A stretch of DNA of 64,000 nucleotides from Desulforamulus ferrireducens. Lineage in GTDB: Bacteria > Bacillota > Desulfotomaculia > Desulfotomaculales > Desulfotomaculaceae. The notes below the pieces were generated by a model. That model searched no databases, was not told the origin of the DNA, and saw only the letters and a program-made list of their open reading frames with translations. Shown here piece by piece: positions 57,300-63,298 of this stretch. Made by a program: the position numbers and the translations under genes. Numbering within the stretch: the first letter of the stretch is position 1; each line of letters starts with the position of its first letter. The stretch covers positions 124,001-188,000 of the forward strand of contig NZ_CP019698.1 of the NCBI RefSeq assembly GCF_002005145.1. Direction: 5' to 3'.

Positions 57300-58181
57300 A
57301 TGAGTGAAGTACTAAAAAAGCAGTTGGGAGATACCTATTGTTTTTGTTCCCGTAGATTTCTAGAAGTCTCCATTGCCTACAGTTGTTCCCTGTTTTGCAT
57401 TGTTAAATCACGGTTTCCTATAGATATAGAACCAGGGCTACATGGTCACGAAAGCTATGAGTTTTTGCTTCCAATTACCACGATGCCCCAGGGTAAAATA
57501 GAAAAAGAGGTGTGGGATTTTCAACCAGGCAAGGTATATCCTTTTAGCTCCTGCCAAGTCCACGGAGTACATAAGCTAATGAAGGGCGTAGAACTGATGT
57601 CCATCATGGTGGAGCAAAATTTAATGGATGATTTAACCTATGCCATTATTGGTAAAACAGGTCTAACCATCAACAATAGTTCTTTTAACCTGTACCCAGA
57701 GCTAAAGCTATTAATTCGTAACTTTATCAAAGAATCCACCAACAAGCAAGCGGGGTATGATTTTGTACTGGAGAGTCTAAGGACGCAAATCCTGATCAAC
57801 CTTATTAGAAACATTAAGGGTCCCCTGGCTTCCCACCTGGAAAAAGGGCAAAATATCTTAAGCAATCATCATATTAACAGAGTTATCGAAATGATCAGGG
57901 CCTATTACAATCGGGATTTTACTCTGGATGATTTAGCCAGGGAAGCTAATTTAAGCCAATATCATTTTATTAGGGCATTTAAAAACCAAACAGGACAAAC
58001 ACCCCATGAATTTTTAATGAATATTAGAATTGAAAAGGCCAAGGAGTTAATGTCCAAGGATCTGAACATTACTGATATATGCTTACAATGTGGCTTTAAT
58101 AACCACAGTCATTTTACTACGGTATTTAAAAAGAAGGTGGGTTTAACCCCCACCCAATATCGAAAAGTATTACAGAGTTAA
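57300..58181 (+). CDS. AraC-family transcriptional regulator
   Basis: 293 residues. The N-terminal 180 residues are a cupin-like sensing part (PGLHGHESYEFLLPITTMPQ, FQPGKVYPFSSCQVHGVHKL). The C-terminal 100 residues hold two helix-turn-helix units: FTLDDLAREANLSQYHFIRA and LNITDICLQCGFNNHSHFTT with the family ending FKKKVGLTPTQYRKVL. It lies upstream of an alpha/beta hydrolase in the same direction, with a terminator between. Its regulon is unknown. Confidence 0.88.
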   Translation: MSEVLKKQLGDTYCFCSRRFLEVSIAYSCSLFCIVKSRFPIDIEPGLHGHESYEFLLPITTMPQGKIEKEVWDFQPGKVYPFSSCQVHGVHKLMKGVELMSIMVEQNLMDDLTYAIIGKTGLTINNSSFNLYPELKLLIRNFIKESTNKQAGYDFVLESLRTQILINLIRNIKGPLASHLEKGQNILSNHHINRVIEMIRAYYNRDFTLDDLAREANLSQYHFIRAFKNQTGQTPHEFLMNIRIEKAKELMSKDLNITDICLQCGFNNHSHFTTVFKKKVGLTPTQYRKVLQS

Positions 58182-58350: not shown

Positions 58351-59262
58351 ATGTTGAGTGCCTTTGATTACCAGGGCAAATATGTTGAGGTAGCAGGCTA
58401 TCGGTTACATTACCTGGATGAAGGTTCGGGAGAAACCCTGTTGTTTTTACATGGCAACCCCACCTGGTGTTATCTATATCGTCATCTCATTGGCGAACTA
58501 AGGAAAAATTATCGTTGCATTGCCCTTGATTTTTTAGGCTTTGGTCTTTCGGAAAAACCTGTTGAAGCTGATTACAGCCTGTCAAAGCAAATAGACCGAC
58601 TGGCCATATTTATCGAAAAATTGAACCTGAGCAATATTACTTTATGTTTGCATGATATCGGAGGTATTGTGGGATTGGCTTGGGCTGCAGAACATAAAAG
58701 CCTGGTCAAGGGGCTTATCATTATGAACACGGTTAGTTGTGTGCCAGAGGTCTTTGGCCAGGGGCGCTATCTGCCGCCTTGGTCCTACCTTGCTCTATGG
58801 CCCTTACGCCTGCCCCTGCTGGGGGAAATCCTGGTGCAGGGTTTAAATCTGCTGCAGAGAGTGGTTATGCCCTTAGCTTTTAAAGACAGGAGTAAATTTA
58901 ATCAGCAAGTTCGCCAGGGTTATGGCTATCCCTATGGAACTTGGGCCAAGCGCTATGGGCAACTGTGTACCGTCAAACAAATCCCTATTTTAAAATCTGA
59001 CCCGGCGTACCAGCTAATTTTAAAAACCGGTCAAAGGTTAGTTGGTTGGCCAGTTCCTACCCAAATTATCTGGGGCCTGCGAGACCCCTCCTCTCCCAGG
59101 CACCTGATTCCCAACACCGAACGACTCTTTCCTAATCATCGTAAGTCTTTACTGCTGCCAGAGGCAGGACACTTTCTCCCCGAGGAACAACCAGAGGCAG
59201 TTACCAAGAAAATTAAAGAATTTCTCAGTTCAATTGGTCATGAGCAACAGGAACACCATTAA
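58351..59262 (+). CDS. Alpha/beta hydrolase, haloalkane dehalogenase-like
   Basis: 303 residues from the ATG at 58351, after GAGGAGGG; a longer reading from 58222 crosses the preceding terminator. The oxyanion motif is LFLHGNPTWCYLYRH, the nucleophile is D102 in CLHDIGGIVGLAW (Asp in place of Ser, as in haloalkane dehalogenases and epoxide hydrolases), then a cap domain and a final histidine in EAGHFLPEEQPEA. The HGNPTW and HDxGG pattern favours the dehalogenase group; the substrate is unverified. Its last 33 bp overlap the end of the convergent gene below. Confidence 0.8.
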   Translation: MLSAFDYQGKYVEVAGYRLHYLDEGSGETLLFLHGNPTWCYLYRHLIGELRKNYRCIALDFLGFGLSEKPVEADYSLSKQIDRLAIFIEKLNLSNITLCLHDIGGIVGLAWAAEHKSLVKGLIIMNTVSCVPEVFGQGRYLPPWSYLALWPLRLPLLGEILVQGLNLLQRVVMPLAFKDRSKFNQQVRQGYGYPYGTWAKRYGQLCTVKQIPILKSDPAYQLILKTGQRLVGWPVPTQIIWGLRDPSSPRHLIPNTERLFPNHRKSLLLPEAGHFLPEEQPEAVTKKIKEFLSSIGHEQQEHH

Positions 59263-61704
59263 ACCATAACTGGCAGCAGCCAAGGGATAAGCCAATGATG
59301 GGGATACCTTGACTTTACTGTTTTTATAAACCTTAAACAGACATAGTAAACTACCTGCCAGCCCGGCGGTAAGTACAAATAGCTGGATCAGAGTGGAGAG
59401 ATCAAGCAGGGGAATACTCTCCCCTGGGCCAGAGATTCTAATTAGTTGGTATAAATGCAGGCTGGTATTATGATCCAATTGGTAGGCCAGGTGCCCACCG
59501 GCAATTAAGGGAATAAAAGCAAAGAAGAGTCGCACATAGGGCACCATTTTTTTGGCGGAGGGGGATTTAGCCTGAAACCGCAGGCTAAAGTAAATAATAA
59601 CTAGGAAGAGCAGCCAGTAAATAACATTAAAGATTAACCCCCATTTGGTAGGGAAAATTGCTTGGATCATATGCAGTGTAAAAAAGGGCAGCAGCATCAA
59701 CCCAAAGGCAGCTACCACTGCGGCCATACCCCAGTGAACGTTGACCAGAGACCATATTTCCCTGGCCGGTGGACGGAGACTTAGTTTCACCGCATTATTG
59801 GGGCAATTTTTAAAACACCGGAAACAAAGCTTGCAATTAATGCTGCTATCGATATACATGACATGCTGGGTTAAGGGACAACCGGGCAGGCGTCCTCCCT
59901 TATAACAGTTATAGGTTTGACACTTATTTTGACACACCTCGGTATTGGCACGTAATTCCACCGGTGATAGGGTTGAGCAAACGGCAATTACCGCCCCCAG
60001 GGGACACATATATTTGCACCAGGCATCTCCTTTAAAAAGAACCGCAGCAACAATGGCTAAAACTGTGAGGGAGAGAAAGAGCAGTCCGGTGAGCAAGGGT
60101 GAAGTCCGCAGGGAAAAGATCTCTTCAAACCAAAAAATCAAACTATATAAGAAAATCACCGTGACATAATAGTATTTACTAATAAAGGACACGGGTTTAT
60201 TTAAACATACCAGCCTTTGGCAAAGGTTGGCCAGGAAAGAAAAGGGGCAAATGGAACAGGCCATACGGCCAAAGAAGATAGAGGTTAAGATGATTACTGG
60301 CCCAACATAAAACCAGACCAGGGAATTAAGCTGGCTGGCAGTTTCCCTGGGGGCCCAGAAACAGCCGGCCATAATCAAGAGAAACAAACAGCTTACCAGA
60401 AACTGCACACTAACCGGCCAGGTTCCCGAATAGATTAGTTTTTTCACTGATTGCCAGCGGAACAGGTCATAGCCGGGGAGGTTCTGGTTGATTTCACCAA
60501 TAATAATGGCTTCCGCATCAATTTTATTTTGATCCGAAAGTGCCAGGGCCCGGTCGATAATCCCGGCCAATTCCTTAATATTCCCTTGCCGATAATCATG
60601 GGAGAGCAGTTTTTCAAAGGCATCGTTGGTCAGATAAGCTTTCTTCTTACTGCCATATTTTTTTTGCTTTTCGGCCAGAAAATGATCCACCAAATCGGGA
60701 ATATCTCTTTTTCTCTCCCGCAGGGGCTTTAGATAAATGGCATTGAGAAAAAGAGCCTGGCAATCAATAGCCGGAAATCTCCGGGCCATGTATTCCTGGG
60801 GGTTTTTTAAGGTGGTGGCCAGGATTAGCCGCACCTCCCGGGAGGTTTCCAGATAATGAATCACCCGTAAAAAGGCATTGTCGGTTAGCGACTCCACATT
60901 ATTGAGCATCAGGGTGCCGCCCCGGGCTAACTCCAAAAAACCAAACCTCACCGGGGCAGTATCTGCCGTGTTGCTGCCGAATATCTTAACTGCTTGATCG
61001 TCCTCCACCAGTTCCTCACACTCAACCACAATAAAGGGCTGTTGTTTATTGGGACCCTGCCTATGGATGGTGTTGGCCACTAATATTTTACCGGTACCTT
61101 CCTCACCAATAATAAACACTGGTTCCAAGTCACGGGCTCGTTCATTTATTTGATGGCGTAAGGCTTTAATAAACCTACTTTTACCCACCAATTTTTTTAG
61201 GGAGTATTTGGACTCGGTAATAAACTTGGCCAGGGCCAATTCTTTATTTTTTCCCTGCATAATTTCCTGATTTATTCTTTTAATCTCTGAGGAAAGGGCC
61301 GCTACCACCTTTTTATTAAGCTGGGGAGTGAGGCTAATTAGTTGCTGGAACTGGTCTTTGTCGAAAAGCAGTAGTTGACTCTTCTTCAGTGCGGTAATGT
61401 TAATCAGGGAGGGTTCCCCGGTTAAGAGGCAGACCTCTCCATAGTAATCGCCAGGGGATAAAGTTTGGGCTATCTTTTTATCGATATCAAGCTCAGTGGA
61501 AAGCTCTAACTTGCCAGTGCAAAGGATAAAGAAATAATTAATGGTCTCTCCTTGCTTTACCACTGGCTCATCAGCCCGAAAGGTTTTCAGAGTACCCAGT
61601 TGTATAATTTGGTTCAGGTATTCCTGGCTAAGGTGACTAAACATGGGGTGTCTTTGCAAAAGGGTGTAAATATTACTCTTGGTACAGGTCTGTACTGCAG
61701 CCAT
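59230..61704 (-). CDS. Fusion of Crp-type sensor, degenerate NtrC-type AAA+ and membrane polyferredoxin
   Basis: 824 residues from the ATG at 61704, after GGGGGTGG. Residues about 15-125 are a cyclic-nucleotide-binding/Crp-type domain (PGDYYGEVCLLTGEPSLINI). About 175-410 resembles the sigma54-activator AAA+ fold: a changed Walker A GEEGTGK, no GAFTGA loop (SNTADTAPVR there), GGTLMLNNVE where Walker B usually reads FLDE, and PLRERKRDIP. Instead of a DNA-binding helix-turn-helix, several membrane helices follow from about 423, with CSICP, CKYMCPLGA and CKLCFRCFKNCPNN near 620 as in NapH/CcoG-type ferredoxins. It probably links redox sensing to membrane electron transfer. Confidence 0.85.
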   Translation of the reverse strand: MAAVQTCTKSNIYTLLQRHPMFSHLSQEYLNQIIQLGTLKTFRADEPVVKQGETINYFFILCTGKLELSTELDIDKKIAQTLSPGDYYGEVCLLTGEPSLINITALKKSQLLLFDKDQFQQLISLTPQLNKKVVAALSSEIKRINQEIMQGKNKELALAKFITESKYSLKKLVGKSRFIKALRHQINERARDLEPVFIIGEEGTGKILVANTIHRQGPNKQQPFIVVECEELVEDDQAVKIFGSNTADTAPVRFGFLELARGGTLMLNNVESLTDNAFLRVIHYLETSREVRLILATTLKNPQEYMARRFPAIDCQALFLNAIYLKPLRERKRDIPDLVDHFLAEKQKKYGSKKKAYLTNDAFEKLLSHDYRQGNIKELAGIIDRALALSDQNKIDAEAIIIGEINQNLPGYDLFRWQSVKKLIYSGTWPVSVQFLVSCLFLLIMAGCFWAPRETASQLNSLVWFYVGPVIILTSIFFGRMACSICPFSFLANLCQRLVCLNKPVSFISKYYYVTVIFLYSLIFWFEEIFSLRTSPLLTGLLFLSLTVLAIVAAVLFKGDAWCKYMCPLGAVIAVCSTLSPVELRANTEVCQNKCQTYNCYKGGRLPGCPLTQHVMYIDSSINCKLCFRCFKNCPNNAVKLSLRPPAREIWSLVNVHWGMAAVVAAFGLMLLPFFTLHMIQAIFPTKWGLIFNVIYWLLFLVIIYFSLRFQAKSPSAKKMVPYVRLFFAFIPLIAGGHLAYQLDHNTSLHLYQLIRISGPGESIPLLDLSTLIQLFVLTAGLAGSLLCLFKVYKNSKVKVSPSLAYPLAAASYGLMVFLLLMTN

Positions 61705-61825
61705 TAACCCACCCCCTTTATACAATAGTTCTGGCGTTAAATTTAATATATTTTACACTAAATGCATAATTTGTGTGGTAAAATTTAGATTTTTTTCGTT
61801 CCATTGATTTTGTCCAGGTTGGTTA

Positions 61826-63298
61826 TCATTTAGTGATATAAGCCACCCGCCCGTAGTCGCTCCAATCTACATGATAACCGAAGCCGGTAAATACCGCCCT
61901 CAGGGGAAGATAGGTTCTGCCCTCTACCATTACCGCAGCCGTATCCATGGGCACTATCCGACCGTTGACACTAAGATCGCTTTGGCCGATGGTTATTTTC
62001 ACCACGTCACCATCCTTGACAGCCGTAATGGTTTTTGTTTTCCCGTCATAGGTTACCACTGCACCTATGGTTTCCAGAGGTTTCCGCACAGGCACCAGGA
62101 TGCGGCCCGCTTCGTCAATGAAGGGCCTGCCGTCTGCAACGCTAAGCCAAAGGGGTTGCTGATGGATGACCAGAAGAATATTATTCTCACATACCTCCCT
62201 GAGATTTTGGCCTGGTCCGACCTGTTCTGTTAACTTGCCCACAGTTTGTCCGATCATAGCTATGGCGCTGGTTTCGTCCTTGGTGTCTTCATTAATGTCA
62301 AAGATCATTACCCCGCCGGCCTTGCGCATGGCCAGCAAGGTCTTTTCCCGCAGGGTGGGCAGTCCGTTATAATAGGACTCCAGCGGTTGGGTGGCCACAT
62401 AGTCCCGGTAGGCATTTTCCCGGTCCAGCGCAATTAATTCTCGATACTGCAACCAGCTTGGGCGCGCATAAAGGGGCATACCCAACACAATTTTTTCCGG
62501 GGCAAGACCACGATTGAGCCAGTAGTCGACGGACAGATCTCCGAAGAAAATGGGGCTGTGGTGTACATCGCTTTGCAGGTCGTAACACATGAGGTTGATA
62601 AAATCCAGAGCTTCCGCCGCTTGATCCGTAATGGCGGCAATGGCTTCCCACCCATTAAGAGGGTCTCTGGTGCCGTTTACGGAAGCCGACAAGCCCATGC
62701 CCTGCGCTGCCAGTTTGGCTTTCAGCAGCAACACTGTCTGTTCATGGCTCTCTGAACTGGTATATGTAGGAGATTCCCAATCCAGGTCATAACCGTCGAT
62801 ATTATACTCCTGGGCATAATCCACCAGACCCTGAGTAAATTTTTCCAGCAGTTCCGGGTCAGCTGCTATCCTTTCAAAGTTGTTCACCACTGGTTCGCCT
62901 TGATGGGTATAGCCGCCCACGGCAACAAAAATCTTTACCCCCGCAGCGTGGCCTTTCTCCACCAACTCCCGCAGTTTATCCGGCTTTGCCAGGGGAATAA
63001 AGCTCCCATCGGCCTGGGGAATCAAAAAGCCATAGATAATGTGGGTGTATACCGGCAGTTGTAGATCAGCCACCGGTTGGTCAAACAAATCCCCGGAATA
63101 ATAGCCCACCACGCGAAAACCGTGATATTTTTCCAGGCTGCCCTTGGCCTGCTTGTGTGGTTGGGCCGTCTGAGCTTGAGCTGCTGTGCTCCCGAAAGCC
63201 GTAAGAGTTAAAGTAACAGCCCAAAACAGCACCAGCATAATATGGCCGCAACTTTTAAGGTTTCTCAGAACCCCTTTTCCCTTGCTATTTTTATCCAT
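61826..63298 (-). CDS. Exported GH18-type glycosidase with C-terminal stalk domain
   Basis: 490 residues. A signal segment (VLFWAVTLTLTAFGSTAAQA) follows a charged N-terminus. The glycoside hydrolase 18 barrel spans about 58-345, with the catalytic DGYDLDWE (D168, D171, D173, E175), VVGYYSGD, KIFVAVGGY and the MCYDLQ strand. The C-terminal 110 residues are a copper-amine-oxidase N-terminal type stalk domain (GRPFIDEAGRILVPVRKPLE, MVEGRTYLPLRAVFTGFGYH). GH18 enzymes of this kind often act on peptidoglycan or spore cortex; chitin is possible. GAGAGGGAG precedes the ATG. Confidence 0.88.
   Translation of the reverse strand: MDKNSKGKGVLRNLKSCGHIMLVLFWAVTLTLTAFGSTAAQAQTAQPHKQAKGSLEKYHGFRVVGYYSGDLFDQPVADLQLPVYTHIIYGFLIPQADGSFIPLAKPDKLRELVEKGHAAGVKIFVAVGGYTHQGEPVVNNFERIAADPELLEKFTQGLVDYAQEYNIDGYDLDWESPTYTSSESHEQTVLLLKAKLAAQGMGLSASVNGTRDPLNGWEAIAAITDQAAEALDFINLMCYDLQSDVHHSPIFFGDLSVDYWLNRGLAPEKIVLGMPLYARPSWLQYRELIALDRENAYRDYVATQPLESYYNGLPTLREKTLLAMRKAGGVMIFDINEDTKDETSAIAMIGQTVGKLTEQVGPGQNLREVCENNILLVIHQQPLWLSVADGRPFIDEAGRILVPVRKPLETIGAVVTYDGKTKTITAVKDGDVVKITIGQSDLSVNGRIVPMDTAAVMVEGRTYLPLRAVFTGFGYHVDWSDYGRVAYITK

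Follow-up and report, generated by a model that had tools for sequence, protein, structure and literature searches.

A Crp-type sensor, an NtrC-type AAA+ domain without catalytic motifs and a NapH-like membrane domain joined in one protein of Desulforamulus ferrireducens

Introduction

Bacterial enhancer-binding proteins (bEBPs; NtrC, NifA and PspF, PF00158) carry an N-terminal domain that serves as the input, an AAA+ domain with a P-loop, a lid, Walker-B acids, an arginine finger and the sigma54-contact loop GAFTGA, and a helix-turn-helix (HTH) domain. Homologues of bEBPs without GAFTGA are soluble DNA-binding regulators, none of them known to have a membrane iron-sulfur domain. VpsR, TyrR, DhaR, HupR and YplP are documented examples (PMC3162934). 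Here we describe a gene found in a 64,000-nucleotide stretch of the D. ferrireducens genome (contig NZ_CP019698.1, positions 124,001 to 188,000; hereafter the window). Its product, hereafter the fusion, joins a Crp-type sensor, a bEBP-type AAA+ domain and a membrane domain with conserved Cys motifs.

Systems to compare with the membrane domain are NapH, NosR and RdhC. These proteins have a common core of four transmembrane (TM) helices with two Cys-Pro motifs and are thought to take electrons from quinol (PMC5928378). In NapH, ferredoxin-type clusters are located at the cytoplasmic face (PMC5449189).

Results

One gene, three parts

The fusion is encoded by a single uninterrupted open reading frame of the minus strand with the stop at 59230. 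Of the two candidate starts, TTG at 61725 and ATG at 61704, the ATG, located behind AAAGGGGG, is preferred. The domain order is certain: a Crp-type cyclic nucleotide-binding (CNB) domain, an NtrC/bEBP-type AAA+ core plus lid, and nine predicted TM helices with 12 conserved Cys. The features are as follows (aa, amino acid positions).

59230..61704, minus strand: the complete gene of the fusion; its product has 824 aa if counted from the ATG and 831 aa if counted from the TTG upstream of it
61336..61587, minus strand: Crp-type CNB domain (Pfam PF00027 cNMP_binding, E-value 1.6e-17, 63.6 bits against a cut-off of 27.5)
61213..61326, minus strand: helix of 38 residues between CNB and AAA, aa 127-164, in the position that the dimerisation helix has in Crp (AlphaFold)
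60772..61191, minus strand: NtrC/bEBP-type AAA+ core, aa 172-311 (Pfam PF00158 Sigma54_activat, 1e-16; motif census; Foldseek matches to NtrC1, 1ny5/1ny6)
61087..61107, minus strand: Walker A GEEGTGK, intact, aa 200-206 (motif census)
60898..60903, minus strand: Asn-Asn at the place of the Walker-B acidic pair, aa 268-269 (motif census)
60508..60720, minus strand: AAA lid, aa 329-399 (Pfam PF25601 AAA_lid_14, 2.7e-14)
59233..60414, minus strand: membrane half with nine predicted TM helices, aa 431-823, the first four being the NapH-like core (AlphaFold, NCBIfam TIGR02163, loop charges)
60244..60258, minus strand: first motif CX2CP (CSICP, aa 483-487), predicted cytoplasmic face (invariant Cys)
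60001..60018, minus strand: second motif CX3CP (CKYMCP, aa 563-568) (invariant Cys)
59803..59934, minus strand: two ferredoxin-type motifs, CX3CX4CX8CP and CX2CX2CX3CP, aa 591-634, predicted cytoplasmic side (invariant Cys, loop charges)

The Pfam scan also gave a weak match to Fer4_5 (2.7e-5) and found no HTH or other DNA-binding domain in the fusion; the TM helices come after the lid. The AlphaFold model, made with an alignment of 65 relatives, had a mean predicted local distance difference test (pLDDT) score of 90.1 and a predicted template modelling (pTM) score of 0.73. It supports the layout, in the order CNB, 38-residue helix, AAA core, lid and nine TM helices (the count is our reading of the helix list). 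A preliminary description of the locus had proposed a Crp-like sensor and a sigma54-type AAA+ domain joined in one protein, with the DNA-binding domain replaced by membrane helices with Cys clusters, and all of this is borne out. Identity was 72, 71 and 47% for full-length orthologues in Desulforamulus and 30-37% for more distant relatives from the same taxonomic order, and the source genome is a single 3.24-Mb contig.

The AAA+ domain: catalysis lost, fold kept

The best structure match of the AAA core was NtrC1 (Foldseek E-value 1.5e-13 for 1ny5; TM-score 0.85 by target length for 1ny6). VpsR (7v2b) and a DhaR model, which likewise have no sigma54-contact loop, were also among the best matches. 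In the window protein GAFTGA is missing, Walker B reads LMLNNVES compared to the expected hhhhDE, the arginine-finger segment reads LFLNA compared to YYRL, and the sensor-II Arg of the lid motif GNVREL is replaced by Lys (GNIKEL).

We observed the same losses across the family. In 74 aligned fusions, chosen by similarity to the window protein, a selection that could have passed over distant members whose motifs are intact, GAFTGA and the Walker-B Asp-Glu pair were each present in 0/74. Arg was found at the arginine-finger position in 7/74 (not Arg in 67/74) and at the sensor-II position in 6/74. Two cyanobacterial and eight further Bacillota members, read by eye, had lost the same motifs, while the motifs, GAFTGA included, were all retained in six of six canonical bEBPs that came from the same contigs and were aligned identically. 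The position of the P-loop Lys was occupied by Lys or Arg in 70 of the 74 fusions, and the P-loop residues G200, E201, G203 and T204 were among the best conserved of the AAA domain. For the AAA part and the membrane part, respectively, the ratio of nonsynonymous to synonymous substitution rates (dN/dS) was 0.13 and 0.14 between two close relatives, and 0.11 and 0.10, with dS near saturation, between the window protein and that of D. aeronauticus.

Since GAFTGA and the Walker-B pair are lost in all 74 fusions, the P-loop Lys or Arg is kept in most of them and dN/dS stands near 0.1 for the AAA part, this part is, as predicted from sequence, a maintained domain without catalysis (a pseudo-ATPase). 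The absence of GAFTGA and of the Walker-B acidic pair, pointed out earlier for the window protein, thus extends to all 74 fusions. The earlier word "dead" fits the loss of the Walker-B acids and the arginine finger; it does not fit Walker A, which is intact and highly conserved, so that nucleotide binding may survive while hydrolysis should not. In comparison with bEBPs, the fusion shares the AAA+ fold, the lid, the P-loop and an N-terminal sensor; it differs in the missing GAFTGA, Walker-B acids, arginine finger and HTH, and in the presence of the membrane iron-sulfur domain.

The membrane half

The 12 Cys form the motifs CX2CP, CX3CP, CX3CX4CX8CP and CX2CX2CX3CP, and all are conserved at 98-100% by weight. 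A TM core with two Cys-Pro motifs is also a property of NapH/MauN, NosR and RdhC/PceC (PMC5928378, PMC5449189), and the two ferredoxin-type motifs have counterparts in the two ferredoxin-type clusters of NapH and NosR. Unlike NapH, the fusion has CX2CP as the first motif, nine TM helices instead of four, no NapG or flavin mononucleotide (FMN) partner, and a signalling front end. The score of its match to the NapH/MauN model TIGR02163 (3.4e-9, 36.6 bits) was far below the cut-off of 213.05. Judging from loop charges, the Cys motifs, the sensor and the AAA domain share one face of the membrane, predicted to be the cytoplasmic one. We infer that the membrane half would hold [4Fe-4S] clusters and react with quinone. 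The domain had been called a membrane polyferredoxin; a membrane domain with Cys clusters it is, but NapH-like membrane ferredoxin is the better term, its motifs being two of the ferredoxin type together with CX2CP and CX3CP. A solved relative was sought with phmmer, which returned none, and with Foldseek, whose best E-value was 1.4; VIA gave no more than middling helical-bundle scores.

Stand-alone paralogues of 446-461 aa resemble the membrane half and have all 12 Cys. They have neither CNB nor AAA and are located in neighbourhoods of their own (a His-rich small protein, MgtE/HtrA). The halves of the fusion might have turned out to be ordinary separate proteins in relatives; stand-alone membrane halves do exist, but they are found beside fusions and do not replace them. 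The small His-rich protein precedes the stand-alone paralogue in two related genomes (L010:974-2802, L009:1076-2811) and had no Pfam match in the one case tested. As a guide to the function of the membrane half, the neighbourhoods of the stand-alone paralogues were uninformative.

The sensor domain and its exchange

The phosphate-binding cassette of the window CNB domain, GEVCLLTGEPSLIN, has Ser where binders of cyclic nucleoside monophosphates have Arg. Among 72 CNB-type members the cassette Arg was present in 21 and missing in 51. Given its absence here, the ligand of the window protein may not be a cyclic nucleotide.

In two relatives, L065 (Planctomycetota) and L092 (Chloroflexota), two HisKA-like stretches and a receiver (REC) domain with its Asp replace the CNB domain, while the AAA and membrane parts are kept. 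These two members are far apart on the membrane-half tree; therefore, the exchange of the sensor probably happened twice.

Distribution and ancestry

A scan of 84,980 species genomes found at least 80 loci, and the 76 fusions that were compared, from about ten phyla, have the same three-part order. In a survey of the class, 12 of 113 genomes had the fusion, one of them truncated; in a sample of the phylum, there were about 14 of 398 (hand count), four with two copies. Among the matches listed, fusions occur in Bacillota, Thermodesulfobacteriota, Nitrospirota, Planctomycetota (mostly anammox), Armatimonadota, Elusimicrobiota, Riflebacteria, Acidobacteriota and Chloroflexota, as well as in a few metagenome-assembled genomes (MAGs) labelled Myxococcota or Pseudomonadota, the labels of MAGs being those in the titles of their records. 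Two cyanobacterial plasmids (L152, L153) add another phylum. Anammox bacteria, sulfate reducers and Geobacter are among the carriers.

A single branch separates the AAA parts of the fusions from those of the control bEBPs. On the membrane-half tree, two or more changes of state have to be assumed, so that the fusion may have arisen once or more than once. We found no description of the fusion in the open-access literature, and it is apparently a conserved, widespread and undescribed family. With regard to the architecture, and as far as that literature shows, the proposal of an undescribed kind of system stands, although every one of the modules is a member of a known family or similar to one; gating, if demonstrated, would deserve a class of its own.

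Neighbour genes

The neighbours of fusions were housekeeping or signalling genes, and no electron-transfer gene recurred beside fusions in the neighbourhoods examined; a fixed electron-transfer operon partner is thus rejected. The genes that did recur are of the input type: cyclases, PP2C/anti-sigma/STAS genes and the hydrolase described below. Redox partners, for which the preliminary description had suggested looking, are not among them.

In four anammox genomes (L084, L093, L099, L111) the gene directly before the fusion encodes a cyclase of the CHASE2-class III type; a Bacillota genome (G091, L148) has such a cyclase gene in divergent orientation to the fusion. The catalytic motifs of these cyclases look intact by eye. 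A PP2C gene follows the fusion in Desulfotruncus (L049) and in a Desulfohalobiaceae MAG (L113), and in Desulfotruncus RsbW-like and STAS genes come after it. An NtrC-type bEBP gene adjoins the fusion in Desulfomonile and in a Geobacter MAG. On both cyanobacterial plasmids, cysK lies directly after the fusion with psbA and petC nearby, in one case also near DsrE/rhodanese genes, which hints at sulfide or redox stress. At the stringency used, no -24/-12 sigma54 site was found in the 350 bp before 69 fusion genes, and the fusion as a sigma54-regulated gene was rejected on this result.

In three Desulfobulbales-type genomes (L066:1299-1763, L073:3357-3824, L083:2177-2668), the gene directly before the fusion encodes a small, apparently membrane protein of 155-164 aa, with no Pfam match in the two tested. 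Directly upstream of the window fusion is a gene for a protein with GH18 and copper-amine-oxidase-N-type domains (61826-63298, minus strand); a homologue is also upstream in a related MAG (L003).

The hydrolase partner

One neighbour in the window is closely tied to the fusion.

58351..59262, plus strand: haloalkane-dehalogenase-like alpha/beta hydrolase gene, convergent with the fusion and overlapping its 3' end by 33 bp

In Desulforamulus, the hydrolase is present in exactly four of nine genomes, those with the fusion, and is adjacent each time. Of the 113 genomes of the class, 6 encode the hydrolase; every one of these also has the fusion, either next to the hydrolase gene or sharing an operon with it (the chance figure for this co-occurrence, 4e-7, ignores phylogeny). 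In G005 the pair sits between entirely different genes; hence the hydrolase and the fusion seem to travel together. The hydrolase has HDIGG as its nucleophile motif, in which Asp is the nucleophile. In haloalkane dehalogenases a Trp follows this Asp; it is missing here, which makes dehalogenation doubtful.

There is a precedent for a hydrolase in a sensing module, namely RsbQ-RsbP, the alpha/beta hydrolase and PP2C pair of B. subtilis (PMC3183031). The Desulfotruncus operon similarly joins an alpha/beta hydrolase, the PP2C, RsbW-like and STAS genes and the fusion. The differences are the haloalkane-dehalogenase-like hydrolase, with its Asp nucleophile and HDIGG, and the missing PAS domain, so we regard RsbQ-RsbP as a parallel only. 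There is no PP2C beside the hydrolase in the window, and in the PP2C of L049 a HAMP domain and no PAS was found. An AraC-family regulator gene (57300-58181, plus strand) lies upstream of the hydrolase gene and is a possible regulator of it.

Discussion

Tentatively, and with a little less than even confidence, we read the fusion as a one-component, signal-gated membrane redox protein in which a dead bEBP domain serves as the relay; this is the best of several readings. The N-terminal input domain, Crp-like here and HisKA-HisKA-receiver in the two distant relatives, would change its state on binding of a small ligand or on phosphorylation. The message would pass through the bEBP-type AAA+ domain, with fold and P-loop kept and hydrolysis not, by a nucleotide-bound oligomerisation or conformation relay. 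The relay would control the NapH-like domain, standing where the DNA-binding domain and the sigma54-contact loop would be, and this domain would carry electrons between the quinone pool and a partner in the cytoplasm by way of [4Fe-4S] clusters at the cytoplasmic face. We infer nucleotide binding, the oligomer, the ligand and the direction of signalling in this scheme.

The membrane half is taken as the output because the domain that can be exchanged stands at the N-terminus, the input end of a bEBP. The neighbours (CHASE2 cyclases, PP2C, RsbW-like/STAS, hydrolase) are input modules. The suggestion in the preliminary description of a regulatory module for membrane electron transfer is thus the best supported, by the exchange of the N-terminal sensor, the input-type neighbours and the invariant Cys ligands; its redox activity, ligand and regulation are predicted.

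Several observations weigh against such a redox protein. An electron carrier would be expected to have a stable redox partner, and none recurs. The resemblance of the membrane half to NapH is weak (36.6 bits vs 213), and its model has no match in PDB. With the cassette Arg absent in the window protein and in most CNB-type members, the cyclase neighbours do not prove binding of cyclic nucleotides. Finally, the signal could run the opposite way, with the membrane redox state read out via the soluble part.

In this last case, the fusion would be a membrane sensor of redox state (quinone pool or sulfide), and the AAA and CNB domains would signal to a soluble partner such as a PP2C/anti-sigma module, a cyclase or an NtrC-type regulator. 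We consider this unlikely, although the SpoIIE/PP2C genes of L049 and L113, the RsbW-like and STAS genes of L049, the NtrC-type bEBP genes in Desulfomonile and the Geobacter MAG, and the cyanobacterial islands with cysK, psbA, petC and, in one, DsrE/rhodanese genes would all fit it. The N-terminal place of the exchangeable domain argues for an input, we know of no CNB or REC acting as an output domain, and no downstream partner is constant.

Lower still is the likelihood of a redox maturation or activation factor like NosR, NapH or CcoG, providing the electrons with which a metal or sulfur enzyme is assembled or repaired, at a time set by the front end. The CXnCP and two ferredoxin-type motifs shared with NapH and NosR (PMC5928378) and the linkage to cyanobacterial cysK agree with it, but neither nos, nap, cco or rdh genes nor genes for metal enzymes are recurrent neighbours of the fusion.

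A membrane-held inhibitor of transcription, whose dead AAA subunit would enter the rings that genuine bEBPs form and thereby poison or sequester these proteins, appears very improbable. The AAA fold and lid are retained, and canonical bEBP genes are adjacent in Desulfomonile and Geobacter; however, such genes accompany the fusion at only a few of about 70 loci, the search for sigma54 promoters before 69 fusion genes was negative at the stringency used, and the invariant Cys would be left unexplained.

A frameshift, a chimeric assembly or a decaying pseudogene, for which the loss of three defining AAA motifs and a truncated relative with in-frame stops (G033) might speak, is ruled out by uninterrupted full-length orthologues in many genomes, congeners included, by the 76 fusions of the same order, by the single-contig source genome and by dN/dS of about 0.1, which leaves the proposal of a genuine fusion standing. 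The relative in question (L007, G033 C81) is without its N-terminal half and is a decayed copy.

The family also calls for a correction of annotation. A cyanobacterial member is labelled "nitrogen assimilation regulatory protein", yet it has no sigma54-contact loop, catalytic residues or recognised DNA-binding domain. On the reading of the fusion as a signal-gated redox protein, and somewhat more guardedly, the family could be a widespread class of one-component membrane redox switches. In these, an AAA+ domain without catalysis, sigma54 contact and DNA binding would be the transducer from exchangeable sensors to a membrane iron-sulfur domain, for post-translational control of respiratory electron flow. 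If this is true, cells in about ten phyla, mostly anaerobes, would gate membrane electron flow through a second messenger or phosphorylation without a transcription step, and the ATPase of a transcription activator would have been turned into a protein relay.

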